A DNA stretch of 52,059 nt from Pseudogemmobacter humi (GTDB lineage Bacteria > Pseudomonadota > Alphaproteobacteria > Rhodobacterales > Rhodobacteraceae). The position numbers and the translations under genes were made by a program. Location of the stretch: the NCBI RefSeq assembly GCF_900609055.1, contig NZ_UXAW01000085.1, forward strand, positions 1 through 52,059. Reading direction: 5' to 3'. Positions 21,741 to 52,059 of this stretch are shown here, in pieces; position 1 is the stretch's first letter, and each line of letters opens with the position of its first letter. The notes beneath the pieces were generated by a model that saw only the letters and a list, made by a program, of their open reading frames with translations, did no database searches and was not told the DNA's origin.

Positions 21741-21746
21741 GCAGCC

Positions 21747-21775
21747 TTGCGGCAGGGCGCGGGGGCCACTAGCCT
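21747..21775 (+). promoter_or_regulatory. Candidate promoter of tRNA-Sec
   Basis: TTGCGG (21747-21752) and TAGCCT (21770-21775) are separated by 17 bases, placing transcription start close to the tRNA 5' end at 21789. The tRNA may therefore be transcribed separately from the fdn-sel operon. Read by eye only. Confidence 0.4.
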
Positions 21776-21788
21776 GACGTGTCGATAT

Positions 21789-21884: not shown

Positions 21885-22080
21885 GAATTCCGAAAGCATC
21901 CGCGAAGGGCACGGCTTACGGGCGATGCTTTCCGCCCGGCCGCTCCGCGCACTCCGGCGCCGGGATCGCGCCTGTCAATCAGGATTTCAGGCATAAGAAA
22001 CAAAGTTTCCTTGAATGACACAAGATCCCGGGCCATCCTGCCCCGGGGCGCCTGCCGCCCCTGCAACTTGCCAGGAGAAA

Positions 22081-22096
22081 CAGTCTCTTCAGACTG
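22081..22096 (+). promoter_or_regulatory. Short hairpin just upstream of cupin RBS
   Basis: CAGTCT-CTTC-AGACTG forms a perfect 6-bp stem with a 4-base loop, ending 3 bases before the GGGAGGA ribosome binding site of the cupin gene. It may tune translation or mRNA stability. The rest of 21885-22080 shows no gene. Confidence 0.35.
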
Positions 22097-22108
22097 CGGG
22101 AGGACATA

Positions 22109-22465
22109 ATGGCTATCAGGAAGTTCGGAACGTGGAAGGCGCCCGGGGTCGAACCGATCACCTCGGACCTCGACTGGTGGCATCCGGTGGAAGGCTCGCC
22201 CACCATGAAGACCTGGATCGAATATCAAAGCCCCGACGGCAAGTATCTGAGCGGATACTGGGAAGCGACGCCGGGCAGCTACCGGGTCAAATACGAGGTG
22301 GACGAGTTCATCCACTTCTTCGAAGGGAAGGCGACGCTGATCAACGACGGCGAAGAGCCCCGCAGCTTCGTGGCGGGCGACACCTTCCTGATCGAAGCCG
22401 GTTTCGACGGGATCTGGCGCACCGAGGAAACCGTGCGCAAGACCTTCGCCATCCGGGTGCGCTGA
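22109..22465 (+). CDS. Cupin protein (DUF861/Cupin_3 family)
   Basis: This 118-residue single-domain beta-barrel protein has the cupin pattern SGYWEATPGSYRVKYEVDEFIHFFEGKATLI...FVAGDTFLIEAGFDGIW, with E/H metal-ligand-like residues in DEFIHFFEG. The family includes (S)-ureidoglycine aminohydrolase-like small cupins; its reaction here is unknown. GGGAGGACATA provides a strong ribosome binding site. A second DUF861 cupin is at 31795. A long GC hairpin follows the gene. Confidence 0.88.
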   Translation: MAIRKFGTWKAPGVEPITSDLDWWHPVEGSPTMKTWIEYQSPDGKYLSGYWEATPGSYRVKYEVDEFIHFFEGKATLINDGEEPRSFVAGDTFLIEAGFDGIWRTEETVRKTFAIRVR

Positions 22466-22488
22466 CAGCGCCGGGCAGCTTAGGCGGA

Positions 22489-22517
22489 CCCGGCCCGGTG
22501 CCCTGTGCCGGGCCGGG
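22489..22517 (+). terminator. Hairpin after cupin gene
   Basis: A perfect 10-bp stem (CCCGGCCCGG/CCGGGCCGGG) with a 9-base loop lies 23 bases after the cupin stop. No U-tract follows. Confidence 0.5.
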
Positions 22518-22687
22518 CTGGCGCCGCCGGGGCCTCCTGCGGGGTCTTCCGCGGGGTCTTCTGCGGGCGATGTGCAGGTCTTTCTCCATTCAATCCGCGC
22601 CCGCCGCGTGAAAAACCTGCGGCGGCGGGTTGTGGCGGCGGCGGTTTCGCCGGATGTTCGACGCCGAGAATGCAGACTGGTCAGGAC

Positions 22688-22981
22688 ATGCCCGCAAACA
22701 GCCTCTCCCGGATCCTCTTGTCCGGCCTGTGCCTCGCCGCACTTTCCGCCTGTAGCCGCTCCGGCGAGATATCGGCCGCCTCCGGCGATCAGGTGACGAT
22801 CCGCCTGGAGCAGGGGACGCATCGCGCCGCCGAGGCGCAGGCCGGGGCCGAACGGCTCTGCGCGGACTTTGGCCGGAAGCCGCAATTCCTGGCCATGACG
22901 ACCGAGCCCGGCAGCCTTGCCCGCCACATCATCCGCTACGATTTCGCCTGTGTGGCGCAAGGAGATCCCGCGCTTTCGTGA
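22688..22981 (+). CDS. Small lipoprotein, unknown function
   Basis: The 97-residue product has a lipoprotein signal with lipobox LSAC (Cys about residue 21), then a short globular domain with two cysteines (LCADFG, DFACV) that could form a disulfide. I do not recognise the family. The start is uncertain: ATG 22688 has AGGA only 2-3 bases upstream, and an in-frame ATG at 22670 is an alternative adding six residues. Confidence 0.6.
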   Translation: MPANSLSRILLSGLCLAALSACSRSGEISAASGDQVTIRLEQGTHRAAEAQAGAERLCADFGRKPQFLAMTTEPGSLARHIIRYDFACVAQGDPALS

Positions 22982-23558
22982 TGGTGCGGGGCCTCGTAGT
23001 AGAGCCGCCGCGCGGGCGCGCGCCTCAGATCAGCCCCGGATCACCATCCGTCATCCGGCCGACGATATCGCCAGCCGGCCTGTCGTCGCGCCCGGGGCCC
23101 GTCACGGGGCAGATCCTTCAGCAAACGGCCCGACCCGGCAGCAGGGACCACCACAGATTTCCGACCCGCCCTTCGGAGCAGGTGGAAGAGGAACATTCCA
23201 GGGACGCTGTGGTTTAACCCGGGCGGAACAACCGGCTGCGAAATCCGTCGCTGCGCGCAGGGGCGGTCCCGGAGATCGGCGGCCTGCGACCCGCGGCGAA
23301 TCCGGCTTTCCGGCGAGGCTGGCGGAAAGCCGCATAGAAGGCAGTCTGGTGAAACAGACCGCCAGGAGACCGCCAGGAGACCAGGCAGAGAAAGTGTCGC
23401 CCGCCTTCCCTGCCCGCCCCCGGCGGCCGGTGGGGGCGGAACAGATTTCGCGCCTTGCGGTTTCCCTGTCCGGGCGGCCCCCGGACCGGACCGTATCGCC
23501 TGCGGCACCTTCCACCCCACCGCGCGCCGCCCGGACCAGACGAAAGGACGCAGCACAG
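22982..23558. other. 577-base stretch with no supported gene
   Basis: Open frames here on both strands have poor codon bias, no ribosome binding site and Arg/Pro/Gly-rich translations. A short tandem repeat of ACCGCCAGGAG lies near 23360-23385. The last part is the leader of the following membrane-protein gene. Confidence 0.5.
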
Positions 23559-23813
23559 ATGACGAAGCCCTGGACCTATCGCCCTGCCGATTCCGGATCG
23601 CCCGGCTGGCAGGACAATGCGCTCAGCAATGCCATGGCCTGGGCCTCGGATACGTTCCTGAGCAACTGGTGCACCCGCGAGGGACACTGGTCTTTCGCCG
23701 TGGCGAACCCGCTCTGGGCGGAATGCAGTTGCTGCCTGACCTTCCGCGGCCTCGTCCTCGGCCTGATCGCAGGCTTTGCGGCAGGCCTGATCGCGGGGGC
23801 CTGGCTCTTCTGA
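23559..23813 (+). CDS. Small membrane protein, 84 residues
   Basis: I do not recognise this protein. It starts at ATG 23559, 8-9 bases after AAAGGA. The first 60 residues are polar and Trp-rich (seven Trp) with a CSCC cluster, followed by a Gly/Ala hydrophobic helix (RGLVLGLIAGFAAGLIAGAWLF) ending the protein. This suggests a tail-anchored inner-membrane protein. Confidence 0.55.
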   Translation: MTKPWTYRPADSGSPGWQDNALSNAMAWASDTFLSNWCTREGHWSFAVANPLWAECSCCLTFRGLVLGLIAGFAAGLIAGAWLF

Positions 23814-24245
23814 TCCTTCGTCCGGCAGGCTTCGCAACCGGGCGGGGTAAAGCACAAGCGCCGCACAGAGGCCCCTGAAATGGCCCCTGAAATCAGGGGC
23901 GCCCGAAGAGGACCGGGCACTGGTGCGCGTCTCAGAGACGGAAGAATTGCATCGGGACCGCCTCATCGCCCTTCTGTCCCCCCGTGGCGCGTGAACCGGC
24001 GGCGATCTTCGCGGGGCTCCGCGAGGCGGGCGGCCACGACGGAGCCGGGCAAGGCCGGCCATCACTCGGGGTTTCGAGCGCGCGCCAGCGGCAGGCATGG
24101 CGCATATCCTGCGCCCATACCGCCCCGCCCCGGGACCAGGCGCCGGGCCGCGCCATCCGGTATTTCCCGAACCGCGCGCGGTCTTTCCGGCCCCGCGGCG
24201 CCTGCGCGGCGATCCCGGTCGCGCGGCCAGGATCCATGCGCCCTT
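23814..24245. other. 432-base stretch with no supported gene
   Basis: It contains a repeated GGCCCCTGAAAT near 23870-23895 adjoining ATCAGGGGC, and a small GTCTC-A-GAGAC palindrome near 23930. Frames are arginine/proline-rich and have no convincing start, so I call no gene. Confidence 0.45.
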
Positions 24246-24446
24246 TCAGCAATCATTGTCCTTGTCGATCATGCCCGGACGGTCGCGGTCCTCGCACATG
24301 GCGCTGTCGGGGTTGCGGCCGCGGGGAATCGAGGGCTCGGGGTCATTCTGCCGCCTCGCCTTCTCGCGCACCACCCCGGGCTCCACCCGGCGCTGTTCGG
24401 GGGTCTTCGCATCGTCCTTGCCGGTGATATTTTCTGCGGATTTCAT
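24246..24446 (-). CDS. Small hydrophilic hypothetical protein, 66 residues
   Basis: A strong CAGGAGGCC ribosome binding site precedes ATG 24446. The product is highly charged (many Lys, Arg, Asp, Glu) with no hydrophobic segment and ends in a Cys. It is probably intrinsically disordered; I do not recognise a family. It follows the spermidine-synthase-like gene in the same direction after 69 bases, so co-transcription is possible. Confidence 0.55.
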   Translation of the reverse strand: MKSAENITGKDDAKTPEQRRVEPGVVREKARRQNDPEPSIPRGRNPDSAMCEDRDRPGMIDKDNDC

Positions 24447-24515
24447 CCTGGCCTCCTGTTGTCCGATCACAGGGGAAACCCGCATCCCGGCGTGTTGTTC
24501 CGGGATGCGGCCGCG

Positions 24516-25214
24516 TCAGCCGGCCTTGCGCAACCCCAGCCGGGCGGCATCCGCCGAGCAGCTGTAGATATGGTGCATGGCATCGACCCGCCCCGGCATC
24601 AGCGCGATATCCTCACGGATCCAGGCCCAGGGATGGGCCGCCAGCGCGCGCTCGAACGGCGCCGAGACGGTGGCCGACCAGAAGGCGGCGATCCCGCCCG
24701 GCCGCAGCGCCCCCGCCACCGCGGCAAGGCCCTGCCCCTGGTAAAGCCCGGTGTTTTCCGGCCGCACCAGGAAATCCGGCCCATTGTCGGTGTCGAGCAG
24801 GATCAGATCGTATGCGCCCCGCGCCCCGGCGAGATGCGCCTGCACGTCGCCGGGGATCAGCCTGGTCCGCGGATCGTCCAGCGGGCGCCCCGCGAGAGGC
24901 CCGAGCGGGCCGCGGTTCCAGGCAACGATCTCCGGCTCCAGCTCGCAGACCGTGACCTCTGCGCCCTGCCCCACCAGATCGAGCACGCCGCGCAGCGTAT
25001 AGCCCATCCCCAGGCCGCCGATCAGCACATGGCGCGCCGTGAAATCGCAGCGCCGCAGCGTGCGCAGGGCAAGCTGATCCTCGGAATGGTGGTTCAGGTT
25101 CGACATCAGTTCGATGCCGTTGTAGCGGATCTCGAAGATCTCTGCGCGCCGGCGCAAGACGATCTCGTCGCCCGAGGCGCTTTGCGCCCGTGCGATGGTT
25201 TCCCACAATGTCAT
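24516..25214 (-). CDS. Spermidine synthase-like SAM-dependent protein
   Basis: The 232-residue protein has a Rossmann methyltransferase fold: LIGGLGMGYTLRGVL (motif I, about residues 61-76), TVCELEPEIVAWNR (acidic residue binding the ribose) and DLILLDTDNGPDFL (motif IV). It resembles spermidine synthase/fused-MFS methyltransferase-like proteins but is shorter than true SpeE and lacks the N-terminal tetramerisation domain, so polyamine synthesis is doubtful. The start at ATG 25214 has a weak GGGAAA site; a 22-codon ORF with a much better site precedes it. Confidence 0.75.
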   Translation of the reverse strand: MTLWETIARAQSASGDEIVLRRRAEIFEIRYNGIELMSNLNHHSEDQLALRTLRRCDFTARHVLIGGLGMGYTLRGVLDLVGQGAEVTVCELEPEIVAWNRGPLGPLAGRPLDDPRTRLIPGDVQAHLAGARGAYDLILLDTDNGPDFLVRPENTGLYQGQGLAAVAGALRPGGIAAFWSATVSAPFERALAAHPWAWIREDIALMPGRVDAMHHIYSCSADAARLGLRKAG

Positions 25215-25307
25215 GTCGTTTCCCGTGATGAGGCGAGGCCCGCGGCAAAGCGCGGGCGGTTTCAGCGCGAGGGGCCGGGTTGCCGGGCACAGACGGCCCG
25301 ACAACCC

Positions 25308-25376
25308 TCAGACATTGTTCGCGCGAAGCCCGATCAGAAGCGGAAACAGCGCCGGAAGGTTGGACAGGTTCGACAT
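25308..25376 (-). CDS. 22-residue micro-ORF with consensus RBS
   Basis: ATG at 25376 follows AAGGAGGGCAT. The peptide MSNLSNLPALFPLLIGLRANNV is hydrophobic in its middle and ends with TGA 94 bases before the spermidine-synthase-like start. It could be a leader peptide, a small membrane peptide or a regulatory uORF. Too short for homology by eye. Confidence 0.45.
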   Translation of the reverse strand: MSNLSNLPALFPLLIGLRANNV

Positions 25377-25529
25377 ATGCCCTCCTTCTGCGGCGCGGGT
25401 CGGGGGCACTATGCCCGCCGGGGGCCGGGGGTGCAACCTGCCCCATTGAGACGCAGGCGGCACCGGCCTATAGACGGGCGAAAGCACTCCTCAGGCTGAG
25501 GGTCGTATCATTCAGCCCACAGGCGAGGA

Positions 25530-26579
25530 ATGCCGATCACCCTGACCTCTGTAAGCCAGCCGCTGAGCCTCGGCTTCGACGCCATCATCGACGTGCGCGC
25601 GCCCTCGGAATATGCCGAGGATCACCTGCCCGGCGCGATCAACCTGCCGGTGCTGAGCGACGAGGAACGCGCGCAGGTCGGCACGATCTACAAGCAGGTC
25701 TCGCCGTTCGATGCGCGCAAGCTGGGCGCCGCGCTGGTGGCGCAGAATGCCGCGCGCCATCTGATCGGGCCGCTCGCGGCGATGCCCGGGGGCTGGCGGC
25801 CGCTGGTCTATTGTTGGCGCGGCGGGCAAAGGTCCGGCTCGTTCGCCACGATCCTTGGCCAGATCGGCTGGCGGGTGGAGCGGATCGGAGGCGGCTACAA
25901 GGCCTGGCGCGGGCTGGTGGTCGAGGCGCTGTATCAGCGGGCCTTCACGGCCCCGGTGGTGCTGCTCGACGGCAATACCGGCACCGCCAAGACCGGGATT
26001 TTGCAGCTTCTGCCGGGGCTTGGCGTGCAGGTGCTGGATCTGGAGGGGCTGGCGGGGCACCGCGGCTCGCTGTTCGGCTCGGTGGGGCCGCAGCTCGGCC
26101 AGCGTGCCTTCGAGGGGCGGCTGGCGCTTGCCATGGCGGCGCTGGACCCTGCCCGTCCGGTGGTGATCGAGGCGGAAAGCGCGCAGATCGGCGCGCGCCG
26201 CCTGCCGCCCAGACTGTGGAAGGCGATGGCCGCCGCGCCGCGGATCGTGATCGAGGCGCCGGGAAAGGAGCGCGCCCGCTACCTCGCCCGCGCCTATGCC
26301 GACGTGACCGGAGATTCCGCGCGGCTCTTGCGCACGATTGCGGCGCTGAAACCCTGGCAGCCCGCGGCGCGGATCGCCGCCTGGGAGGGGATGGTCGGCT
26401 CCGGCGATCACGAGGGGCTCGCGCTCGAACTGATCACCTGGCATTACGATCCGCGCTACAGCCGCCACCGCAACCGGCTGGCGGTGAAGATGGCGCCGCT
26501 GGTGGCGGAGAGCCTTGCGCCCGAAGCCCTGCCCGGTCTCGCCCGCCGGGTGGCGGCGCTGGTGCCCGGACTGGTCTGA
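25530..26579 (+). CDS. mnmH: tRNA 2-selenouridine(34) synthase
   Basis: The 349-residue protein replaces sulfur by selenium at wobble uridine 34 of Glu, Gln and Lys tRNAs using selenophosphate. The N-terminal rhodanese domain carries VYCWRGGQRSGS with the catalytic Cys95, and the C-terminal half has a P-loop (DGNTGTAKT, about residues 147-155). Its presence with selD shows the organism uses selenium for tRNA modification as well as Sec. The start follows GGCGAGGA. A hairpin terminator shared with katG follows. Confidence 0.96.
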   Translation: MPITLTSVSQPLSLGFDAIIDVRAPSEYAEDHLPGAINLPVLSDEERAQVGTIYKQVSPFDARKLGAALVAQNAARHLIGPLAAMPGGWRPLVYCWRGGQRSGSFATILGQIGWRVERIGGGYKAWRGLVVEALYQRAFTAPVVLLDGNTGTAKTGILQLLPGLGVQVLDLEGLAGHRGSLFGSVGPQLGQRAFEGRLALAMAALDPARPVVIEAESAQIGARRLPPRLWKAMAAAPRIVIEAPGKERARYLARAYADVTGDSARLLRTIAALKPWQPAARIAAWEGMVGSGDHEGLALELITWHYDPRYSRHRNRLAVKMAPLVAESLAPEALPGLARRVAALVPGLV

Positions 26580-42822: not shown

Positions 42823-43254
42823 TCAGGGATTGCGGCGCAGGCGGATCACCACATCGACGCGCGAGACCTCGGTCCCTTCCGGCGCCGAGGGCAGGCGCGC
42901 GACCTCAAGCTCCTCTTTCGGCGCGTCGGTCAGCACCGCATTGTCTTCCCAGAAGAAATGCGGGTGATCGTCCATCCTTGTGTCGAAATAGCTTTTCGCG
43001 CCATCGACCACGACCTCGTTCATCAGACCCGCGTCGCAGAAGGCGCGCAAGGTGTTGTAGACGGTGGCGAGGCTCACCTTCTCATGCGCGCCCGCGGCCA
43101 TCTCAAACAGGCTTTCGGCGGTGACGTGGCGGTCCTCGCCGTCGCCGACCAGCAACGTGGCCAGGGCCAGCCGCTGCCGCGTCGGGCGCAGCCCGCCGTG
43201 CTCAAGCCATTCGGCCGCCCGCTCATGTGCCGTCTGCCCTGCCGTCTGTGCCAT
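42823..43254 (-). CDS. irr: Irr-type Fur-family iron-response regulator
   Basis: The 143-residue protein has the Fur DNA-binding winged helix ([14 protein letters not shown]...[38 protein letters not shown]) and a dimerisation domain with [17 protein letters not shown], the HxH-type haem/metal region of Irr proteins. Irr controls iron and haem genes in alphaproteobacteria. I chose ATG 43254, about 9 bases after AGGAGAT. It lacks the C-terminal Cys cluster of Fur zinc sites, which fits Irr. It is divergent from fabA, a synteny I recall from other alphaproteobacteria. Confidence 0.92.
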
Positions 43255-43457
43255 GGGCCGATCTCCTGCCGCTCCTGCCCGCCCGGGATGATCCCGGCGG
43301 GGCCTGTCGCTGGAATGATTATAAAGTGCGCTTGCCCCCGGTTTCAATGGAAAACGCAAATTTCCGCCATTGCGTTCGCGGGTGCAGCACCCTTGCCCTG
43401 GGTTCGGTGCCTCTGTTAGAGGAAAAGCAGGAGAAGATCAGACGGATCGGGGAGAAG

Positions 43458-43967
43458 ATGGGGCGTTATCCGAACAAGTTCGACCGGGAAGACCTGCTGG
43501 CCTGCGCAAGGGGCGAGCTTTTCGGCCCCGGCAACGCCCAGCTTCCCGAACCGCCCATGCTGATGATGGACCGCATCACCGAAATCTCGGAGGATGGCGG
43601 CGAACATGGCAAGGGCCATGTGGTGGCGGAATTCGACATCCACCCCGATCTGTGGTTCTTCGCCTGCCATTTCCCCGGCAATCCGATCATGCCGGGCTGC
43701 CTCGGGCTTGACGGTCTGTGGCAGCTGACCGGCTTCAACCTCGGCTGGCGCGGATGGGAGGGGCGCGGCTATGCCCTGGGCGTCGGCGAGGTCAAGCTGA
43801 CCGGCATGGTCCGCCCCGAGCGCAAACTGCTGCGCTATTTCGTCGATTTCACCAAGGCGGTGCAAACCCGCCGGCTGACCATGGGTGTGGCAGATGGCCG
43901 GGTGGAAGCCGACGGCGAGACCATCTATCTGGTCAAAGACATGAAGGTGGCCCTCTCGGCCTCGTGA
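43458..43967 (+). CDS. fabA: 3-hydroxydecanoyl-ACP dehydratase/isomerase
   Basis: The 169-residue enzyme introduces the cis double bond in anaerobic unsaturated fatty-acid synthesis. The active-site His ([21 protein letters not shown], with the catalytic Asp in GLDGLWQ) is present, and the hot-dog fold length fits. The start follows GGGGAGAAG. fabB follows after 24 bases, then fabI, forming the usual fabA-fabB-fabI operon. Confidence 0.97.
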
Positions 43968-43991
43968 TCCCTAGGTAAGGACTATAACCGT

Positions 43992-45218
43992 ATGCGTCGC
44001 GTCGTCATCACCGGCCTCGGCATCGTCTCACCCATCGGCAACAATGTGGCCGAAGTGGAAGCCAGCCTGCGCGCCGGCCGGTCGGGCATCGTTTTCGCCC
44101 CCGATTACGCCGAACGCGGCTTCCGCTCGCGGGTGCACGGCCAGCCGCAGATCGTTTTCGAGGACCATATCGACAAGCGCGACCTGCGCTTCATGGGCGA
44201 CGGCGCGGCCTATAATTTCATCGCCATGAGCCAGGCGGTCGCCGACAGCGGGCTGGAGGCGAAAGACGTCTCGAACGAGCGCACCGGGATCATCGTCGGC
44301 TCGGGCGGGCCTTCGACGAAATCCTTCTTCAAGGCGCATAACATCGTCTCGGAGACCGGCAGCCCGAAGCGGATCGGCCCGTTCGGCGTGACCAAGGGCA
44401 TGTCCTCGACCACTTCGGCCTGCCTCGCGACGCCCTTTAAAATCAAGGGCGTGAACTATTCGATCACCTCGGCCTGCTCGACCTCGGCGCATTGCATCGG
44501 CAACGGCGCCGAGCTGATCCAGTTCGGCAAGCAGGATATCGTGTTCGCCGGCGGCGGCGAGGAACTGGACTGGACGCTGTCGTGCCTGTTCGACGCCATG
44601 GGCGCGATGTCGTCGAAATACAACGACACGCCCGACCGCGCCTCGCGCCCCTATGACGCCAATCGCGACGGTTTCGTGATCGCGGGCGGCGGCGGCGTGG
44701 TGGTGCTGGAAGAGCTGGACCACGCGCTGGCGCGCGGCGCGAAGATCTACGGCGAAGTCACCGGCTACGGCGCCACCTCGGACGGCCACGACATGGTGGC
44801 GCCGAGCGGAGAAGGCGGCGAGCGCTCGATGAAGCTCGCGCTCTCCACCCTGCCCCAGGGCCGCCGCATCGGCTATGTCAACAGCCACGGCACCTCGACC
44901 CAGGCCGGCGACATCACCGAGATCGAGGCGATCCGCCGCGTCTTCGGCGAGGAGAACATGCCGCCCGTCGCCTCGACCAAATCGCTGACCGGCCATTCGC
45001 TCGGTGCGACCGGGGTGCATGAGGCGATCTATTCGCTGATCATGATGAACAAGGGCTTCATCGCCGCCTCGGCCAATGTCGAGACCCCGGATCCGGCGCT
45101 TCGCCCCGGCGAGGTGGTGACGGAACTGCGCGAGGCCGAGATCGACAGCGTTCTGTCGAACAGCTTCGGCTTCGGCGGCACCAATGCCACGCTGGTGATG
45201 AGCAAATACAAGTCTTGA
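43992..45218 (+). CDS. fabB: 3-oxoacyl-ACP synthase I
   Basis: The 408-residue condensing enzyme has the catalytic Cys ([13 protein letters not shown]), the two His residues ([11 protein letters not shown] and [11 protein letters not shown]) and GFGGTNAT at the C-terminus. FabB elongates the cis-3-decenoyl product of FabA. It starts 24 bases after fabA; its stop is 11 bases before the fabI start. Confidence 0.97.
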
Positions 45219-45229
45219 GGGAGCGCGGC

Positions 45230-46018
45230 ATGGCCGGACTGATGCAGGGAAAACGCGGCCTCGTGATGGGTGTCGCGAATGACCGTTCCATCGCCTGGGG
45301 CATCGCCTCGGCGCTTTCCGCCGAAGGGGCGGAGCTTGCCTTCTCTTACCAGGGCGAGGCTTTCGGCAAGCGGGTCGAGCCGCTGGCGGCCTCGGTCGGC
45401 TCGGATTTCCTCGTCGATGTCGATGTGACGGATGAGGACTCGCTCGGCCGCTGCTTCGACGCGCTGAAATCCCGCTGGGGCAGGCTCGATTTCGTGATCC
45501 ATGCGGTGGCCTATTCCGACAAGACCGAACTCACCGGCCGCTTCACCAATACGACGCGGGCGAACTTCCTGAATTCGCTGAACATCTCGTGTTTCAGCTT
45601 CATCGACGTGGCGCGGCGCGCGGCGGAACTGATGCCCGAGGGCGGCAGCCTGATCACGCTGACCTTCCAGGGCTCGAACCGGATCGCGCCGAATTACAAT
45701 GTGATGGGTGTGGCCAAGTCCGCGCTGGAATCGGCGACGCGCTATCTGGCGAACGACCTCGGGCCGCAGGGCGTGCGGGTCAATGCGATCTCGCCCGGCC
45801 CGATGAAAACGCTGGCCGGATCGGCGATCGGCGGCGCGCGGGCAACCTTCCGCCATACCGAGGAAAACGCGCCTTTGCGCAAGAACGCCACGCTGGAAAC
45901 CATCGGCGGCACCGCGGTCTGGCTGTGCTCGGATTACGGCGCCGCGACCACCGGCGAGATCGTCCATGTCGACGGCGGCTATCACATTCTGGGCTTCCCC
46001 CAGGCCGAAAACATCTGA
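45230..46018 (+). CDS. fabI: Enoyl-ACP reductase (NADH), FabI
   Basis: The 262-residue short-chain-dehydrogenase-fold enzyme has GVANDRSIAWGIASAL (nucleotide binding) and NYNVMGVAKSALE with the Y-x6-K catalytic pair. In the segment LTFQGSNR the residue aligned by eye to E. coli Tyr146 is Phe, and the flanking YGAE-type residues differ, a variant that may affect inhibitor response. The start was set at ATG 45230 after GGGAGCG; an in-frame ATG five codons earlier lacks support. Confidence 0.95.
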   Translation: MAGLMQGKRGLVMGVANDRSIAWGIASALSAEGAELAFSYQGEAFGKRVEPLAASVGSDFLVDVDVTDEDSLGRCFDALKSRWGRLDFVIHAVAYSDKTELTGRFTNTTRANFLNSLNISCFSFIDVARRAAELMPEGGSLITLTFQGSNRIAPNYNVMGVAKSALESATRYLANDLGPQGVRVNAISPGPMKTLAGSAIGGARATFRHTEENAPLRKNATLETIGGTAVWLCSDYGAATTGEIVHVDGGYHILGFPQAENI

Positions 46019-46208
46019 CATGGCCGGGCTCCGCCGCCGGGCGTGAGGCCGGGGGGCTCCGGCAACTTTCCGCGCTGCCCGGCGGCACTGAGGCGGTTCA
46101 TGCAAAGCAGGTGAACGCCGCTGGTTCGCTAGAGCCCGCAACACGGCGCGGGAAGATTGCTCCCGATACCGGATCATGACCCTGAACGGACATATCCGGG
46201 CGAAGACC

Positions 46209-46346
46209 TCAGATCTCTGCGCCAAAGGCGCCGAATGACCGGGACTCGCCCGTGATGCCATAGGCGCTGCGGAGGCCAGGGCCGGCAAGCGTCCCACCGA
46301 CGATTGCCACATGGGAAACCAGTGCGGTTAACCCACTGATTACCAT
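46209..46346 (-). CDS. Possible 45-residue hydrophobic small protein
   Basis: ATG 46346 opens a frame with hydrophobic N-terminus (MVISGLTALVSHVAIVGGT) and a Gly/Ser-rich end (ITGESRSFGAFGAEI). There is no clear Shine-Dalgarno, so it is weakly supported. It lies between fabI and the prophage-like genes. The rest of 46019-46480 shows only scattered small hairpins. Confidence 0.3.
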   Translation of the reverse strand: MVISGLTALVSHVAIVGGTLAGPGLRSAYGITGESRSFGAFGAEI

Positions 46347-46480
46347 GCGATATTTTCCGAAGGATGGAGCGGGAGCGGGAGACGCGCTCCAGCCAATCCC
46401 GAGCAGGGAATATATCTCTTATTTTATTGCCAATCTCAAATCGACATGGAGCGGATTGTTGTACAGATTGGTGCTCAAGT

Positions 46481-46714
46481 CTAGGTGCTTGTCCCGCTGA
46501 CCTCAGCGATCATATCCGCCCGAAACCCCGACCAGACCTGATCCCCAGCCACCACCAGCGGCCCCTCCCGCGAGCCTGCGATCCTCGCCAGCCGCTCGAC
46601 ATCATCCGGCCAGTCAGCCCCTGCCCTCTCCTCATAGGCCAGTCCGGCCTGATCCAGCGCGCGCTTGGTCGCAACGCACGGGCCACAACCCGGCGAGGTG
46701 TAGATGATGATCAT
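46481..46714 (-). CDS. NrdH/glutaredoxin-like protein
   Basis: The 77-residue thioredoxin-fold protein has the redox motif SPGCGPC near the N-terminus (Cys10 and Cys13), a short hydrophobic start (MIIIYTS) and a C-terminal VSGTST. Such small glutaredoxins serve ribonucleotide reductase and are common in phages. ATG 46714 follows AGGATCTCTCCC. The next gene-like segment upstream ends 11 bases before it, so it may be the last gene of a small operon. Confidence 0.85.
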   Translation of the reverse strand: MIIIYTSPGCGPCVATKRALDQAGLAYEERAGADWPDDVERLARIAGSREGPLVVAGDQVWSGFRADMIAEVSGTST

Positions 46715-46724
46715 GGGAGAGATC

Positions 46725-46952
46725 CTATTCGTGATCGTGAGGCACGTTGTTGAAGCTATCGAGCCATTGCATCTTGTGCCGCATGAGATCGGGTGTGCCG
46801 AAGGATACCCATAATTCGCCCATGCCCGCACATTGCGAACACCGCAGGCCAGCCTGAACTGCAACAAAATCGAGCCCTTCCCCCGGCGCTACAACGTCAA
46901 GCCGACGCTGATCGAGGGAATGTAGGAGTACCCGGTATCGACTGGGTATATT
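46725..46952 (-). pseudogene. Zn-ribbon-like reading frame lacking a start, upstream of nrdH
   Basis: An open frame on the minus strand (75 residues) reads coding-like, with GLRCSQCAGMGELWVSFG and a polar C-terminus NNVPHDHE, but has no ATG/GTG/TTG start in frame; TGA at 46953-46955 precedes it. The adjoining frame (from ATG 46990) begins MIVHAAFREIMKYTQ and could be its N-terminus after a frameshift. Truncated or shifted phage-type zinc-finger gene is an inference. Confidence 0.4.
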
Positions 46953-47060
46953 TCATGATTTCCCTGAACGCTGCATGTACGATCATATGTGGACGCTGCG
47001 CAACAGGTATTGCACACGGGCAGTAATAACCTTCAAATTTTCCACGCACTGCTGGCCAAA

Positions 47061-48707
47061 CTAGCTTCGAAAATTTCTGGTCGGGCGAACGCCAACAGGC
47101 CTCGCGGCTCTCGTTCGAGTTTTCGCTGTCTTAGGGCCAAATTTTACAGCATCCACTTTCCTCGCAGCAAACATCGCAGCAACCTGCGACAATCCACTTT
47201 TGAAGCCAGACAAGGCATGAAACTCAAGAAAGGTATGAGTTCCAGTTTTATTATCAATCATTGGCGTCGGATCATCAAACTGCCACTTCTTAACCCTATT
47301 CAGTTCGTCACGCCTCTTTTTCCCCTTCTCAAATATCTCCCTATATCTTCGCGGAGCTATTCCAATAAAATGCTCAACAAGCACTTTATCAGAATCCCCC
47401 CTTGATACCGTCAATGCATCCCCACTCAGCTCGAAGGCCTTACTTTTAGCATAAGGCTCAATGTAAACTATTCGCGTGACGCCAGCTGCAATGAGATGTT
47501 TTGCACAGTTATGACAGGGAAATGTAGTCACGTATATCGTGGATCCCAGTGTCGACCTACCTAAACGCGCAGCATCAGCAAGGGCAGACATTTCAGCATG
47601 AGTTATCCTTCCAAATTCAGTAATATCAGAAATAAATGCATCTTTCAAAACATGATCCAGAGCCGGGTCTCTCAACACTTCAACAGGATCAAAATTCATT
47701 TTATCGAGCTTCGACAGGGCATGCACAAAGTCGTATATTAGTCTTGTAGTCTCAAGTTTATTTGGCTCAACTCCCCTCTCAATATCGCGCTGAGGGTAAT
47801 CATCATCACACCAATAATTCCCCCCTTGCGACTTAGGCACCTCATTACACCCAAGTGTGATAACATCTCCAAACTTGGACATTATGGCAGCACCTACCTG
47901 CCTACTAAGATCAAGCGTTCGAAATGATGCCGTCTTCGCAAGAAAGCTACCAAACTCATCTCGTGTCGGGCTAATCATATTAGACCCAAAGAATGCCTCT
48001 ATAAATCTGCCAATTTGAGATCCAATTTCGTTTGCGTTCCCACCAACGAACACATCCGCGCTATGATATACGTTTATAAGGCTTTGGCCAAATGGTGAGC
48101 CGGCCTCATCTTTATCCCTAATAATAAGCTGTCTGGCTTCGGATTCGCGTTTCACCTGAGATAGTTCTGGAGCCTCTCTGCCCACAATGCTTAAAACAGA
48201 TTGAAACTGATCCCCTTCACTCACCGCTATAGAAATCTGAACGAACTTCTTGCCGTATACCTTCGAAAGAAGATCTGCTTCCTGCTTTCGCTTGAGCTGA
48301 CGAACAATATATGCCTTCTTTGAAGCCTGGAATATCCTTGCGTTTTTTGCATTCAGCTCCCTCGGCTTATTGAATTTAACACGATTAGCCACAATTGAGG
48401 CAATGGCGACTCTAGCAAGAAAATCCTGCTTTCCGGAGTACCTAACCACGTCATTCATAAGATTTATTTTCTGGGTATATGTATCAATTTCAAAACTGGA
48501 GAATTCATGCAGCATCGCTTTCAAATCGCGCGTCAGGTGAATAACAACGGCTTCATACCCGACCTTCATAAGTTCAACCCTTAATGCCTCTTGAGCAGCA
48601 TCAATATTGCTACCCAATGGGCCCACCAAGCCAAAAACGAGCTCGGGCGTAAGGACGTCCATATGATTTTCTGAATCACCCCCAATAGAATTAATATCTT
48701 CGCTCAA
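47061..48707 (-). CDS. avcD: AvcD-type anti-phage dC deaminase (P-loop domain + CDA domain)
   Basis: The 548-residue protein begins with GLVGPLGSN (residues 26-34), a P-loop-like kinase-like domain, and ends with a zinc deoxycytidylate deaminase: HAEMSALADAARLG (His370, Glu372), PCHNCAKH (Cys398, Cys401). The order and the conserved ADVFVGGNANEIG, DLSRQVGAAI and GCNEVPKSQGGNYW blocks match AvcD-like proteins that deplete dCTP/dCMP during phage infection. TTG 48707 has GAGGTG upstream; the frame is open to 48812 but overlaps a divergent gene. The region is far poorer in GC than neighbours. In V. cholerae AvcD is held by an AvcI RNA; no such RNA is identified here. Confidence 0.85.
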   Translation of the reverse strand: MSEDINSIGGDSENHMDVLTPELVFGLVGPLGSNIDAAQEALRVELMKVGYEAVVIHLTRDLKAMLHEFSSFEIDTYTQKINLMNDVVRYSGKQDFLARVAIASIVANRVKFNKPRELNAKNARIFQASKKAYIVRQLKRKQEADLLSKVYGKKFVQISIAVSEGDQFQSVLSIVGREAPELSQVKRESEARQLIIRDKDEAGSPFGQSLINVYHSADVFVGGNANEIGSQIGRFIEAFFGSNMISPTRDEFGSFLAKTASFRTLDLSRQVGAAIMSKFGDVITLGCNEVPKSQGGNYWCDDDYPQRDIERGVEPNKLETTRLIYDFVHALSKLDKMNFDPVEVLRDPALDHVLKDAFISDITEFGRITHAEMSALADAARLGRSTLGSTIYVTTFPCHNCAKHLIAAGVTRIVYIEPYAKSKAFELSGDALTVSRGDSDKVLVEHFIGIAPRRYREIFEKGKKRRDELNRVKKWQFDDPTPMIDNKTGTHTFLEFHALSGFKSGLSQVAAMFAARKVDAVKFGPKTAKTRTRAARPVGVRPTRNFRS

Positions 48708-48757
48708 AATACACCTCAAGTTTCGGCGAACTTCCAGCTCCCAGTGAAGAACTGATC

Positions 48758-48785
48758 TTGCAATAGTCAAGCAAAAAGAGATACT
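48758..48785 (+). promoter_or_regulatory. Candidate promoter of divergent small gene
   Basis: TTGCAA (48758-48763) and GATACT (48780-48785) are 16 bases apart, upstream of the plus-strand gene at 48824 and inside the avcD 5' intergenic region. Read by eye. Confidence 0.35.
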
Positions 48786-48823
48786 GGACGTGCCCCAACA
48801 TTCCGCAAACATTGGAGAACACC

Positions 48824-49012
48824 ATGCCCGCGATCAAGGATTGCCAAGCAGCCGCCCAAGCAAGAGACGCGGAGTTTGCGAAGGAAGTCCTTGAAATTGC
48901 TGACCAATCTGACAGGAAAACGGCCCTGCTGCCGGACTCCATCAGGCGCGCAATGGCATCTTATCTTGAACCAGAATCTGATCCAGGTAAGCCATGGGAA
49001 ACTTGGCTCTAA
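48824..49012 (+). CDS. Small protein, 62 residues, divergent from avcD
   Basis: I do not recognise this protein. It starts with ATG 48824 (TTGGAG 7 bases upstream) and is an acidic helical protein (AAAQARDAEFAKEVLEIADQSDR; LPDSIRRAMASYLEPESD) without hydrophobic segments. Its AT-richer composition resembles avcD more than the host. A partner or regulator of avcD is possible but unproven. A terminator hairpin follows after 7 bases. Confidence 0.6.
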   Translation: MPAIKDCQAAAQARDAEFAKEVLEIADQSDRKTALLPDSIRRAMASYLEPESDPGKPWETWL

Positions 49013-49019
49013 CCCCCGC

Positions 49020-49044
49020 AGCCCGCCCCTCCGGCGGGCTTCTT
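49020..49044. terminator. Terminator hairpin (may serve both strands)
   Basis: AGCCCGCC-CCTCC-GGCGGGCT forms an 8-bp stem after the small gene, followed by TCTT; it also lies just past the last minus-strand micro-ORF of the phage late operon. Confidence 0.65.
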
Positions 49045-49115
49045 CATGCGCGCCCCAGCCTGAGCCAGAGCGCGTCGAGGAATAGCGAGAACCGCCAGTC
49101 CGGTTGCGGTGTCAC
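49044..49115 (-). CDS. Micro-ORF, 23 residues, translationally coupled
   Basis: GTG 49115 overlaps the stop of the preceding micro-ORF (GTGA) and has AAGGTGGGG 5 bases upstream. The peptide is MTPQPDWRFSLFLDALWLRLGRA, Trp/Leu-rich and amphipathic. No family recognised. Confidence 0.4.
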   Translation of the reverse strand: MTPQPDWRFSLFLDALWLRLGRA

Positions 49116-49201
49116 TTGACGCCCCACCTTGCGAAGATCGACCAGGACGCGGCCACCGCCCCGCCGTCAGCGGTCAGCAGATCTGGAAAATGGCTGATCA
49201 A
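49112..49201 (-). CDS. Micro-ORF, 29 residues, overlapping Rz1-like stop
   Basis: TTG 49201 overlaps the stop codon of the Rz1-like gene (TTGA), with GGGGTG 4 bases upstream. The short peptide begins MISHFPDLLTADGG and ends ARWGVK, its stop overlapping the next micro-ORF start. Coding status is inferred from coupling only. Confidence 0.35.
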   Translation of the reverse strand: MISHFPDLLTADGGAVAASWSIFARWGVK

Positions 49202-49401
49202 TCGCACCCCGCGTCGATCAGCGCGATCAGCCGGGCCCCGGTGACCACCGCCCGGTCATCCGCCGAATCCGCCAGGGCCGCCGCATGATCGGTGCGCGCC
49301 TCCCGCGAACCATCGCAGAGCGCATCACCGCTGGTTTGCGTCCCGTTCACGCAGCCAGCGACGAGCAGCGTCAGGGTCATTGCCGTGATCAGGCGCATCA
49401 T
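49198..49401 (-). CDS. Rz1-like outer-membrane spanin lipoprotein
   Basis: This 67-residue lipoprotein (lipobox LLVAGC, Cys about residue 17) has a charged/Ala-rich mature part. Its first 77 bases overlap the 3' end of the preceding membrane-protein gene in another frame, as in phage Rz/Rz1 pairs. ATG 49401 follows GGAAAGGA. It would act as o-spanin to fuse the membranes at lysis; sequence itself is not diagnostic. Confidence 0.65.
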   Translation of the reverse strand: MMRLITAMTLTLLVAGCVNGTQTSGDALCDGSREARTDHAAALADSADDRAVVTGARLIALIDAGCD

Positions 49402-49561
49402 CCATTCCTTTCCGGGTTTTCGCATAGCGTTCTGCGGCCTCCAGCGCCGTCTCTTGCCGCGCTGACGCCCTGCCCCGCCACCACGCAACGGCAAGGGCGG
49501 CGATCACCGCCCCTGCGCCGGCCAGCCAGCCGGAGAATTCGGTGAAAATCCATGTCAACAT
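49325..49561 (-). CDS. Rz-like inner-membrane spanin
   Basis: This 78-residue protein has one N-terminal membrane helix (WLAGAGAVIAALAVAWW) followed by a charged coiled-coil-like tail (RASARQETALEAAERYAKTRK). ATG 49561 has GGAGCGAGA upstream and overlaps the preceding gene's end. Topology, size and overlap with the lipoprotein gene suggest i-spanin of a phage lysis module. Confidence 0.65.
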   Translation of the reverse strand: MLTWIFTEFSGWLAGAGAVIAALAVAWWRGRASARQETALEAAERYAKTRKGMDDAPDHGNDPDAARRWLRERDANQR

Positions 49562-49920
49562 TTCTCGCTCCAATCCGGCAGATCCACGGTCTGGCCAGCG
49601 AGAGCATGGGTGCAGTCGCCCAGGAACTGGATGCGTCCGTCCGTCACGAAGCTGTGGCAGCACAGACAGTCGCATGGCCAATCCGGATCACCGGATCTGT
49701 CGCAATGCTTGCCGTTCGGCTGGACAAAATGGCCGCTCTGAACGAGGATCGACGGGGTGAAGGTTGGCGCATCCCCGCTTCCATTCCATCCCCACCGTGG
49801 CCCCGACCCATTCCCGACCGTCACACGATGGGTCTCGTTGCAGCCAGGACAGCGGAATGCCAGGCTACCATCGGTAAGGCGGTTGAGTTTTGTGCCAACA
49901 AGAATTGTCACGTCGCCCAT
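49555..49920 (-). CDS. Phage protein, DUF6527-like zinc-binding
   Basis: The 121-residue protein has Cys pairs CPGC (about residues 24-27) and a CDCLCC cluster (about 83-88), suggesting metal binding, and the WNGSGDAPTFTPSIL segment common in small phage proteins annotated DUF6527. Function is unknown. It lies between the holin-like and Rz-like genes and overlaps the latter. Confidence 0.7.
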   Translation of the reverse strand: MGDVTILVGTKLNRLTDGSLAFRCPGCNETHRVTVGNGSGPRWGWNGSGDAPTFTPSILVQSGHFVQPNGKHCDRSGDPDWPCDCLCCHSFVTDGRIQFLGDCTHALAGQTVDLPDWSEKC

Positions 49921-50093
49921 CCGAACCTCCGGGCAAGCGCATAGGCGCCCTCGGTCAGGGCTCCGATGCCTGCGCCGATCAGCAGCACCAGATCCGGCTC
50001 TGCCGCGGCCGCCTCGGGCGGGCTGAACAGGCCATAGGCGACCAGCGCGCCCGCGATGTAGCGCGCGAGGATACGAGAGAGGGGAGCGATCAT
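49908..50093 (-). CDS. Holin-like small membrane protein
   Basis: The 61-residue protein has two hydrophobic helices (ARYIAGALVAYGLFS; DLVLLIGAGIGALTEGAYALA) with a short loop. ATG 50093 follows GGAGGTCCAA and overlaps the stop of the endolysin gene (ATGA). Its position directly after the endolysin supports a holin role, which is inference. Confidence 0.65.
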   Translation of the reverse strand: MIAPLSRILARYIAGALVAYGLFSPPEAAAAEPDLVLLIGAGIGALTEGAYALARRFGWAT

Positions 50094-50665
50094 TTGGACC
50101 TCCAGAGCAGGTTGCTGATGATTTCGACGATGCGGGCCAGCCAGCCCGGCTGGGTCGCGGCGGCCGGTGCGGCCGTGGTGCGTCGGGCGGTCCTGACCCG
50201 CTCGCGGATCAGATCGCCCACCGCCAGCGGATCGCCGGGCTGCGTCATGCCGGGCAGCCAGGTGATGTCCCATTTGCCGCGCTGCGCGATGCCCAGCGTG
50301 GGCTGCACCTCGGCATGGGTCAGCACCGTCTCGCGTGTCACCGGGATCTGATACTGGTCGCAGAGCGCAACCAGCAGGTGCGTCAGCGCGGCTTCCTGCG
50401 CGGCGGTGATCGGCGCAGAGCCGGGCTTGAACGGCCGCTCCTGCGCGCCCGCCATCGCCGCCAGCGCCACGCCGATACTGCCGGTGTTGCAGTTGAGCGT
50501 GTGGGCAGCATAGGCACCGGGTTTCAGCGGCCCGGCGTTCGCCCGGACCGGATGCAGCCCGCTATGCAGTTCCCCGGATCCATCGAGGATCAGGTGATAG
50601 TGTTCCTTGTCGAGGCCGGTCGGCTTGTGAGGCCCGCCGGTCCAGTGGATGATGATGCGCTTCAT
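50090..50665 (-). CDS. Phage endolysin, N-acetylmuramoyl-L-alanine amidase
   Basis: The 191-residue protein belongs to the amidase_2/PGRP fold: IIIHWTGGPHKP at the start (first zinc His), YHLILDGSG, and later VLTHAEVQPT with another zinc His, and TWLPG. It cleaves peptidoglycan at lysis. ATG 50665 has AGGAGGCGCC upstream. The C-terminus (WLARIVEIISNLLW) is hydrophobic, perhaps a membrane anchor. Confidence 0.9.
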   Translation of the reverse strand: MKRIIIHWTGGPHKPTGLDKEHYHLILDGSGELHSGLHPVRANAGPLKPGAYAAHTLNCNTGSIGVALAAMAGAQERPFKPGSAPITAAQEAALTHLLVALCDQYQIPVTRETVLTHAEVQPTLGIAQRGKWDITWLPGMTQPGDPLAVGDLIRERVRTARRTTAAPAAATQPGWLARIVEIISNLLWRSK

Positions 50666-50745
50666 CGGCGCCTCCTGTCGCTGGACATGAAAAAGCCCGG
50701 CGCGGTGGCCGGGCGGTTTATACACACTTATTTGCGCATCAATGC

Positions 50746-50774
50746 TTGACTGTGCTGTGGAAAGTATGTATATA
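50746..50774 (+). promoter_or_regulatory. hicAB promoter
   Basis: TTGACT (50746-50751) and TATATA (50769-50774) are separated by 17 bases, with a nearby direct TATGTAT repeat that could bind HicB. The hicA ribosome binding site (AAAGGAGGGG) follows. Confidence 0.6.
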
Positions 50775-50795
50775 TGTATTCAGAAAGGAGGGGCG

Positions 50796-50984
50796 ATGGA
50801 GCTTGAGACAAACTCACGAAAGCTCCTGAAGGTTCTGAAAGAAGCGGGCTTCGAGGAAGTGTCCAAGAAGGGATCACACCTCAAACTTCGGAAAGGGGAT
50901 CGAACCGTGATCCTGCCCCACCCGAAGAAAGACCTGCCGCCCGGAACCGTCAGGAGCATCTACCAGCAGGCCGGGCTTCTTTAG
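50796..50984 (+). CDS. hicA: HicA-family mRNA interferase toxin
   Basis: The 62-residue toxin has the double-stranded-RNA-binding-like fold with SRKLLKVLKEAGFEEVSKKGSHLKLRKG, including the catalytic His in KGSH. It cleaves mRNA when not bound by HicB. ATG 50796 follows AAAGGAGGGGCG. hicB follows after 52 bases. Confidence 0.93.
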   Translation: MELETNSRKLLKVLKEAGFEEVSKKGSHLKLRKGDRTVILPHPKKDLPPGTVRSIYQQAGLL

Positions 50985-51036
50985 CCCGGTCTACCCATCG
51001 CCCCCTCCCTACGAAACAACCACACGGGCAAATGTC

Positions 51037-51438
51037 ATGCGCTACTACATCGCTATCGTTCACCAGGACGGGGACAGCGCCTTTGGCCTGACCTTCCCCG
51101 ATCTTCCCGGCTGCTTCGCCGCAGCCGATACATGGGACGCCATTCCCGCCGCCGCGACCGAAGCTCTTGATCTGTGGTTTGAAGATCAACCGGACGCTGA
51201 GCCCGCATCTCTCGACGGCCTTCGCCGTCGGAAGGACGTGGCCGAAGCCATGGCAGGTGGGGCCGTTCTTCTGCCGATCCCCTACATTCCTGCGGATACT
51301 GCGGTCGACCGTGTAAACATCACCATGGAGCGCAGCCTGCTGCGCGCCATTGACGAAACCGCCAGGGCCAGAGGGATGACCCGCTCGTCCTTCCTCGCCT
51401 CGGCCGCACGGCGGGAACTGGTCGGGGTGACGCCCTGA
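51037..51438 (+). CDS. hicB: HicB-family antitoxin
   Basis: The 133-residue antitoxin has the HicB N-terminal domain (YYIAIVHQDGDSAFGLTFPDLPGCFAAADT) and a C-terminal ribbon-helix-helix-like region (VNITMERSLLRAIDETARARGMTRSSFLASAA) that binds its own operator. It lies downstream of hicA in the usual order and ends against the convergent phage gene. The pair is oriented against the phage genes, so it was probably inserted as cargo. Confidence 0.92.
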   Translation: MRYYIAIVHQDGDSAFGLTFPDLPGCFAAADTWDAIPAAATEALDLWFEDQPDAEPASLDGLRRRKDVAEAMAGGAVLLPIPYIPADTAVDRVNITMERSLLRAIDETARARGMTRSSFLASAARRELVGVTP

Positions 51439-51690
51439 TCAATCCCGCCGCGCGAGCAGCGTCTTGATGTCCCGGCGGACCTCATCCAGCATTGCGTTGG
51501 TCGTGTCGCGTGCCTCCTTGTGCGCGCGCAGATCCTCTTCGCGTTGTCGCCAGAGCCTGCGGATCTCAGCCGCGTTGGCTTTGGTCCGCGCCTCGCCGCG
51601 CACCAGCCAGACGATCAGCGCCACCAGAGCCAGCAACTGCGCCCAGACAGCTTGAATGATGGCCAGGAGGCCGTGTGGGGTGTCAGGCAT
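51439..51690 (-). CDS. Small phage membrane protein with coiled coil
   Basis: The 83-residue protein has an N-terminal helix (AVWAQLLALVALIVWLVRG) and a charged coiled-coil (RRLWRQREEDLRAHKEARDTTNAMLDEVRRDI). AGGAGATACG precedes the ATG. Its topology resembles phage holin-accessory or DUF2730-type proteins; family assignment is tentative. Confidence 0.65.
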   Translation of the reverse strand: MPDTPHGLLAIIQAVWAQLLALVALIVWLVRGEARTKANAAEIRRLWRQREEDLRAHKEARDTTNAMLDEVRRDIKTLLARRD

Positions 51691-51727
51691 CGTATCTCCT
51701 GCGCATGAAAAAGCCCGCCGGAGCGGG

Positions 51728-51793
51728 TCAGAGTGTCATCCAGGCTGCGATCAGCCATGCGGCGAGCGGCAGGATCAGGAGCCAGCAGGCCAT
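51728..51793 (-). CDS. Possible 21-residue membrane peptide
   Basis: ATG 51793 (GAGGG 9 bases upstream) encodes a hydrophobic peptide MACWLLILPLAAWLIAAW plus MTL. It may be a small phage membrane peptide, but support is only RBS and composition. Confidence 0.3.
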   Translation of the reverse strand: MACWLLILPLAAWLIAAWMTL

Positions 51794-51922
51794 GGATCGG
51801 CCCTCACCAGCCCCAGCACGGCGAGCGCGACACCCACGTCATCACCAATGACCGCAGCGAACCGGTCGGGGTGCGTCAAGCGCCAGATGACGCAGCGCCT
51901 CCCATGCGGTGACGCGGATCAC
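51775..51922 (-). pseudogene. Possible frameshifted phage protein
   Basis: From GTG 51922 the frame reads VIRVTAWEALRHL, and a +1 shift gives THPDRFAAVIGDDVGVALAVLGLVRADP, which together look like one protein of about 48 residues. Either a programmed shift, a mutation or a sequencing error would explain it. Confidence 0.25.
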
Positions 51923-51981
51923 CAAGGCATTTGTCGCACCGCCACGCGCGCGCCAAATCTCCGCCCCGGGTCAGAGCCGGA

Positions 51982-52059
51982 TCACAGCAGCCCGGCATCG
52001 CCACAGATCAGCTGGGCGATCTGCTCATGGCCGTATTTGTTCGGATGCAGCCCGTCCAT
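51982..52059 (-). CDS. SGNH/GDSL hydrolase-like phage protein, C-terminal fragment
   Basis: Only the last 25 residues are in the window: DGLHPNKYGHEQIAQLI, the block with the catalytic Asp and His (D-x-x-H) of SGNH hydrolases. In phages such domains occur in tail or baseplate esterases. The gene begins beyond the right end. Confidence 0.7.
   Translation of the reverse strand: MDGLHPNKYGHEQIAQLICGDAGLL

Follow-up and report, generated by a model that had tools for sequence, protein, structure and literature searches.

A 52,059-nucleotide stretch of Pseudogemmobacter humi DNA, the whole of which we call the window, carries a deaminase gene just beyond a set of prophage lysis genes, and this raises two questions: what is such a gene doing at the edge of a prophage, and what would keep its product in check? 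AvcD of the AvcID system is a two-domain deaminase. PMC10511110 describes AvcD as deaminating both dCTP and dCMP and as being held by an RNA, AvcI, whose loss when a phage halts host transcription is the published trigger of AvcID. AvcI is also described as a small RNA in passages of PMC12409362 and PMC9455884, and the latter reports it upstream of avcD in a passage that does not state the strand. A sequence-only reading of the window had proposed that the gene is an AvcD-like anti-phage deaminase carried as prophage cargo, which would serve superinfection exclusion. Feature coordinates are collected in Table 1.

Table 1. Coordinates of the deaminase gene, its small divergent neighbour and the prophage genes around them
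Feature	Position	Strand	Basis and remarks
Glutaredoxin-like gene (named by eye)	46481..46714	-	Other border of the cargo slot; adjoins host fabI as last phage-associated gene
avcD-like gene, 548 aa, TTG start	47061..48707	-	Adenylate-kinase-like N-terminal domain and C-terminal dCMP/dCTP deaminase domain
PCHNC zinc motif, residues 397-401	47505..47519	-	P397, C398 and C401 invariant in 50/50 aligned homologues
HAE motif of the deaminase zinc site, residues 370-372	47592..47600	-	H370 and E372 invariant in 50/50 aligned homologues
Candidate divergent control region, 116 bp	48708..48823	.	Block TTGC..(A/G)GTCAAG..AAG.GATACT, and GGAG before the small gene
Small divergent gene of the putative partner, 62 aa, ends in SYLEPESDPGKPWETWL	48824..49012	+	Same place in L002, L082 and L083; third-position excess
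GC hairpin with T/C tail, terminator-like by eye, just after the small gene	49020..49045	+	Sequence; not flagged by the scanner
Rz1-like spanin	49198..49404	-	phrog_1275, E 1.3e-4 (longer frame searched)
Rz-like spanin	49325..49558	-	phrog_1026, E 1.2e-5 (longer frame searched)
DUF6527 protein of the lysis cassette	49555..49920	-	PF20137; phrog_3362
Holin-like membrane protein (by eye), 61 aa	49908..50093	-	Beside Rz in L180, L181, L188, L190 and L193; no PHROG family match (longer frame searched)
Endolysin (amidase)	50090..50665	-	PF01510; phrog_5867

The minus-strand reading frame proposed for the deaminase is real, and its proposed limits are those of a 548-aa gene that starts at a TTG. The ORF listing gives a longer frame of 583 aa from an upstream ATG (48812..47061). 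However, an in-frame TTG lies at exactly 48707 and is the better start, because GAGGTG directly precedes it and because the closest relatives, at the three loci L002, L082 and L083, start at the corresponding place. The PADLOC dCTPase profile scored 447 bits (E = 3.6e-134) over residues 47-538 of the 583-aa frame, which is evidently not a chance match. The NCBIfam model NF041025 was covered entirely (positions 1-437 of 437) with 383.2 bits, below the model cut-off of 400, so the window avcD is probably a divergent relative and we do not assign it to that NCBI equivalog. Pfam recognized a dCMP/cytidine deaminase zinc region, phrog_9198 was matched with 258.7 bits, and all five zinc-site residues of the HAE and PCxxC motifs are invariant among the 50 aligned homologues, in keeping with the earlier description of both motifs as intact. 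The sequence-only reading had called for HMM and structure searches and had named best matches to metabolic dCMP deaminases lacking the N-terminal domain as the outcome that would count against it. That outcome did not occur, and AvcD-type profiles were matched over nearly the full length, so the proposed AvcD/dCTP-deaminase architecture is supported. By analogy with its family, the window protein would deaminate deoxycytidine nucleotides and act in phage defence.

The AlphaFold model of the window protein has a mean pLDDT of 88.9 and a pTM of 0.87. Its top structural matches in the PDB are dCMP deaminases (2w4l, 2hvw, 4p9c and T4 1vq2), followed lower down by adenylate- or uridylate-kinase-like folds (3h0k, 2bwj and 1uky); the latter probably fall at about residues 20-240, as placed from the secondary structure of the model, the listing of matches itself giving no ranges. 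Among the best 50 rows from a viral structure library, most of the named ones are dCMP-deaminase-type proteins. These kinase-like matches bear out the proposed P-loop-like N-terminal domain in its fold. The loop itself reads GLVGPLGSN, without the Walker-A lysine, and GxxxxGK[ST] was found near the N-terminus in 0/50 aligned N-termini and 0/97 avcD rows. Therefore the term P-loop-like fits, and use of ATP by this domain is doubtful.

The composition and neighbours of the gene speak to how it arrived. The gene has a GC content of 44.5%, and the 500-bp blocks across positions 47000-48999 range from 43 to 49% GC, against 58-71% in the remaining blocks of 43000-51999, as expected from the AT-rich setting first noted. 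The lysis genes that adjoin it are likewise as proposed, with endolysin, Rz and Rz1 confirmed by PHROG matches. Several of 12 other genomes of the genus have DNA resembling the lysis genes and the glutaredoxin-like gene, and host fabI, beyond the glutaredoxin-like gene, is 80-86% identical in 11 of the 12; the avcD stretch has no listed DNA match in any of them, with at most 23 candidate places scored per genome. Next to the endolysin gene, and opposite to the direction of the lysis operon, are genes for a HicA toxin and a HicB-like antitoxin (50742-51438, +). Farther away, the window holds a selenium cluster (11289-26579) with SECIS_3 at 13285-13343 and tRNA-Sec at 21788-21883, and some of its ORFs resemble, by eye, selD, selA, selB and the genes for a tRNA selenouridine synthase and for a formate dehydrogenase, the last of which begins close to the SECIS.

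To compare the slot between the lysis genes and the glutaredoxin-like gene, 14 stretches were fetched. Both borders are present in four of them (L180-L183), where the glutaredoxin-like gene lies past the lysis genes; L185 repeats the L011 contig, and the other nine have one border only within the stretch. Two of the four, L180 and L181, come from a single congener genome, G783; in them the glutaredoxin-like gene follows Rz1 after about 300 bp and avcD is absent. In L182 (G783) about 3.6 kb of other genes separate the borders, and in L183 (G784) about 3.3 kb, with just a fragment of Rz1 matched in the latter. The cargo in both includes IrrE-like peptidases (PF06114; L182:4026-5745, +, and L183:3225-4367, -), and this slot may possibly exchange defence genes. 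In L182 a 392-aa protein beside the peptidase has no Pfam match and looks nucleotide-cyclase-like by eye; SRAP-type genes, also named by eye, occur in both slots. At locus L011 a similar glutaredoxin gene is preceded by an SRAP gene (PF02586) and by an avcD that differs from that of the window (46% identity). The amidase gene on the far side of these two encodes an Amidase_3 unrelated to that of the window and none of the lysis proteins of the window match there, so L011 shares one slot border only.

Since no more than about 300 bp separates these borders at L180 and L181, avcD is cargo. The slot also lies at a prophage edge, since beyond the glutaredoxin-like gene L180 and L181 run on into host genes, a RACo gene and a murA/aroA-type gene respectively, as the window runs into fabI; the contig does not include the other end of the prophage. 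The cargo proposal was to be judged by synteny in related prophages and would have been weakened by a chromosomal gene in related strains lacking the prophage. We found avcD missing from otherwise matching G783 loci and other cargo in its place in L182 and L183, and no such chromosomal case. The closest avcD relatives at L082 and L083 are on IMG/VR contigs, and a phage integrase gene lies near avcD in L002 and L083.

The second question, of control, turns on a gene that the sequence-only reading missed. A 62-aa ORF lies head-to-head with avcD, and the three closest avcD genes have counterparts of 61-63 aa in the same place that are 65-74% identical. The four small proteins share 21 invariant positions, including the terminal KPWETWL. 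Nucleotide differences by codon position (for example 24, 16, 36 and 14, 15, 29) are highest at the third position in all six pairs, and dN/dS is about 0.2 in the two pairs for which dS could be computed, the other four being saturated. This pattern indicates that the small gene evolves as a protein. The intergenic spacing is 115-120 bp at all four loci, each of which retains the conserved block and the GGAG. A promoter and terminator scan of the window did not list the block, so a promoter in this region can only be presumed. In the window avcD is co-oriented with the endolysin gene, whereas in L082 it runs against a neighbouring amidase gene; since the head-to-head layout is kept despite this difference, the small gene and avcD move as a unit.

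Searches for the small gene elsewhere led back to avcD. Across 394 genomes of the family, a profile built from the four sequences matched strongly only in the genome of the window (E 2e-34; next best 0.0034), and both of its matches in viral contigs adjoin avcD; in the family genomes and viral contigs searched, no copy was found away from avcD. The window small protein had no match in the plasmid collection or in the phage collection and none to NCBIfam or PHROG, and its Pfam matches were all below threshold. Rfam gave no family at the divergent region or the small gene. A structure predicted from the four sequences has one long and one short helix (mean pLDDT 74.7). Taken on its sequence record, this is an avcD-linked protein gene.

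Small neighbours are present well beyond the closest relatives. Copies of the window or of other loci (L001, L091, L140, L141 and L142) and loci without an avcD N-terminus were left out before counting; this gave 112 loci with an avcD N-terminus, and 107 after removal of five duplicates (L092, L096, L138, L139 and L085). Small ORFs were compared within 700 nt on either side of avcD, and 997 ORFs were searched with an iterated profile. A co-directional small ORF directly after avcD was found in 43/107 loci, and none of the ORFs searched in the three remaining position classes matched the profile. Raw clustering, noise included, had assigned 47 loci to downstream co-directional, 25 to upstream divergent, 7 to downstream antisense and 4 to upstream co-directional clusters; these totals contain small clusters that resemble gene overlap or composition, and 43/107 is the cleaner figure. 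In 37 of the 43 loci the downstream ORF begins between -29 and +6 relative to the avcD stop, most commonly at -4 (11/43), and W-P-x-W is invariant in the 22 that were aligned (WPxWK motif). In the seven pairs tested, the third position changes most in six and dN is below dS in all. One of 97 avcD proteins, that of L060, ends in GLIKKLGAHVKQWPNWKKNVLGTF, which matches the WPxWK profile at residues 507-526 of 527 (E 1.5e-5), and by this match L060 is a natural fusion of avcD with the small-ORF motif.

The WPxWK type was also followed into other collections. The Pseudomonas downstream ORF matches phrog_38465 (50.9 bits), a family listed, like phrog_9198, as of unknown function. In the plasmid collection the Vibrio small protein had two matches, both at an avcD 3' end, and the Pseudomonas protein had none; in the phage collection the latter matched three records at E up to 0.1, one strongly (MT838710) and just after avcD, and two weakly. 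The plasmid gene table is incomplete: the WPxWK-type ORF beside avcD in record L158 is not listed in its annotation. The neighbouring ORF in record L157 is annotated as a hypothetical protein and belongs to none of the subtypes tested. Among 398 genomes of a phylum-wide sample the WPxWK profile gave four weak matches (E 0.003-0.01), none convincing and yielding no linkage count, as the presence of downstream-type avcD was unchecked there. The sole match in a single-protein scan of viral contigs, L198, was set aside as chance, being a low-complexity frame in a contig where no avcD was found. L126, L127 and L129, on a deep avcD branch, have small ORFs that overlap the avcD stop and do not match WPxWK, possibly representing further partner types. 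Overall, the comparisons indicate that a conserved small neighbour is present for much of the avcD family.

In alphaproteobacteria the small ORF is often upstream and divergent instead, in five subtypes. Subtype a is the window type; b comprises L003, L004, L010 and L006; c, L007, L008, L009 and L012; d, L005, L057 and L094, grouped by eye and forming no cluster in the ORF clustering; and e, L015, L016, L090 and L095. For b, c and e the third codon position is highest in all 15 pairs. In comparisons with the downstream WPxWK family, taken by itself or together with b, the scores of subtypes b and d exceeded 60/60 column shuffles, and c was borderline, with 1/60 shuffles as good. The window small protein did not qualify as a WPxWK homologue (13/60 shuffles as good against the combined profile, 22/60 against subtype b), and the profile comparison does not support common descent of the window small gene and the WPxWK family. 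Nor did c qualify as a relative of b (44/60 shuffles as good) or e as a relative of the downstream family, its score lying within its shuffles. Several subtypes have C-termini that look alike by eye, a resemblance set aside as unproven, and nothing of subtype c was found in the viral contigs. At L057/L096 (G036) a relative of avcD is split into two reading frames and the divergent small ORF is still open.

A tree of the deaminase was computed from 97 rows; incomplete, short or stop-containing sequences were dropped, L016 and L057 fell out, and AvcD of Vibrio cholerae was not included. All 17 divergent rows belong to a single clade of 23 (support 99); they include L006 despite its more distant small ORF, about 2.3 kb upstream. 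The tree requires 4 changes of arrangement against 15.9 for shuffled labels. The downstream arrangement accounts for another 41 rows, and by the criteria used 39/97 have neither, so these data do not establish a small partner as universal. Seven avcD frames (L027, L040, L058, L065, L079, L080 and L032) have an extra N-terminal stretch with the motif NW(Y/F/W)(E/Q/P)(S/T)TG.I.FQGK, and six of these fall in a clade of eight without a small ORF by the same criteria.

We propose, with a probability of roughly 0.53, that the window prophage carries a two-gene defence module made up of an AvcD-type deaminase and a cognate 62-aa partner, most likely an inhibitor that is lost upon infection. The small protein, most likely made in excess from its own promoter, would bind the deaminase and keep it inactive. 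An infecting phage that stops host transcription would cause loss of the small protein and free the deaminase, which would then turn dCTP and dCMP into dUTP and dUMP and starve the incoming phage of deoxycytidine nucleotides. A role like that of a type II antitoxin is suggested by the linkage, the coding selection and the one fusion (L060). That the small protein would inhibit, rather than activate or repress transcription, we infer from analogy: it is proposed as a labile inhibitor because of the loss of AvcI in AvcID (described in a passage of PMC10511110). More tentatively, and at somewhat less than even odds, in many lineages a tiny protein partner encoded after avcD, divergently before it or fused to its C-terminus may hold the enzyme off until infection. 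The window prophage would then represent a new, divergently transcribed subtype and AvcID one branch of a family that switches between protein and RNA control, and AvcD-type deaminases would not in general be single genes or RNA-controlled.

The small protein could instead be an activator or a phage sensor that switches the deaminase on, and the conserved linkage and the L060 fusion would fit this as they fit any direct partner. We consider it unlikely on the precedent of AvcID, in which a passage of PMC10511110 has loss of the inhibitor activating the enzyme, rather than on anything that bears on it directly. A transcriptional regulator of avcD is the natural guess from the layout, as divergent genes are typical of regulators, the 116 bp would be a control region common to both genes, and the predicted protein is helical. 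It is nonetheless quite unlikely, since the small ORF is downstream in the 43 loci counted above, mostly touching or overlapping avcD, and the motif recurs inside the L060 avcD protein. The overlap and the L060 motif therefore fit a protein-protein role better, with the relation of subtype a to these cases unsupported.

There is a slim chance that the ORF is incidental and that the divergent transcript acts as an antitoxin in the manner of AvcI. AvcI as published is a non-coding RNA next to avcD (PMC10511110 and PMC12409362), the small gene would give a short transcript, perhaps ending at the hairpin recognized by eye, and either this transcript or an RNA from the same 116 bp could act in place of the protein. 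Against this, the third-position excess and the conserved amino acids hold across four diverged loci, GGAG precedes the small-gene start in all of them, Rfam has no family at the region, and the transcript is divergent; PMC9455884, by contrast, reports AvcI as lying upstream of avcD (in the passage that leaves the strand unstated). Very improbable is a deaminase that merely serves the nucleotide metabolism of the prophage (dUMP for thymidylate synthesis) with no defence role: its C-terminal domain does match phage and cellular dCMP deaminases, but AvcD-type profiles were matched over nearly the whole length, of the 884 phage records with a match to the window avcD only 1 has a single place that spans 80% or more of the query, avcD is sparse (E < 1e-50 in 7/295 family genomes, its own included and two of them in pieces), and the slot is exchangeable.

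If the deaminase is indeed paired with a protein inhibitor, this would matter in several ways. Silencing of AvcD as published is by the RNA AvcI (in the passages cited above), and a conserved small protein gene that lies next to avcD, follows it or is fused to it across several phyla would add a second mode of control, easily tested and with a likely trigger point. Constructs with the deaminase alone may then be missing half of the system. As for the prophage slot, it shows where such modules get exchanged. Among the papers listed in literature searches, no title or abstract opening describes a small protein partner of AvcD, and the 2022 primary papers or subscription journals may contain one.

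The module can be set beside several known systems. The phage and cellular dCMP deaminases (T4 cd and ComEB) resemble the C-terminal domain of the window deaminase in zinc site and fold, but their matches are confined to that domain. Of the two PHROG families of unknown function, the window avcD matches phrog_9198, and the window small protein, unlike the Pseudomonas one with its match to phrog_38465, matches none. The anti-phage dCTP deaminases (NF041025; PADLOC dCTPase) have long profile matches to the window avcD and differ in that it falls short of the NF041025 cut-off and its neighbour gene matches no NCBIfam model. By the criterion of an RNA antitoxin beside avcD, the window has 116 bp followed by a divergent protein gene, with no Rfam match, and we do not file the module under the AvcID type III toxin-antitoxin systems. 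Its deaminase, moreover, belongs to an alphaproteobacterial clade of its own, in a tree computed without Vibrio cholerae AvcD. The likeness to AvcID, known from Vibrio and others, is one of design: both pair a two-domain deaminase with a small neighbouring element as its presumed controller, a non-coding RNA in AvcID and a conserved, divergent protein gene in the window.
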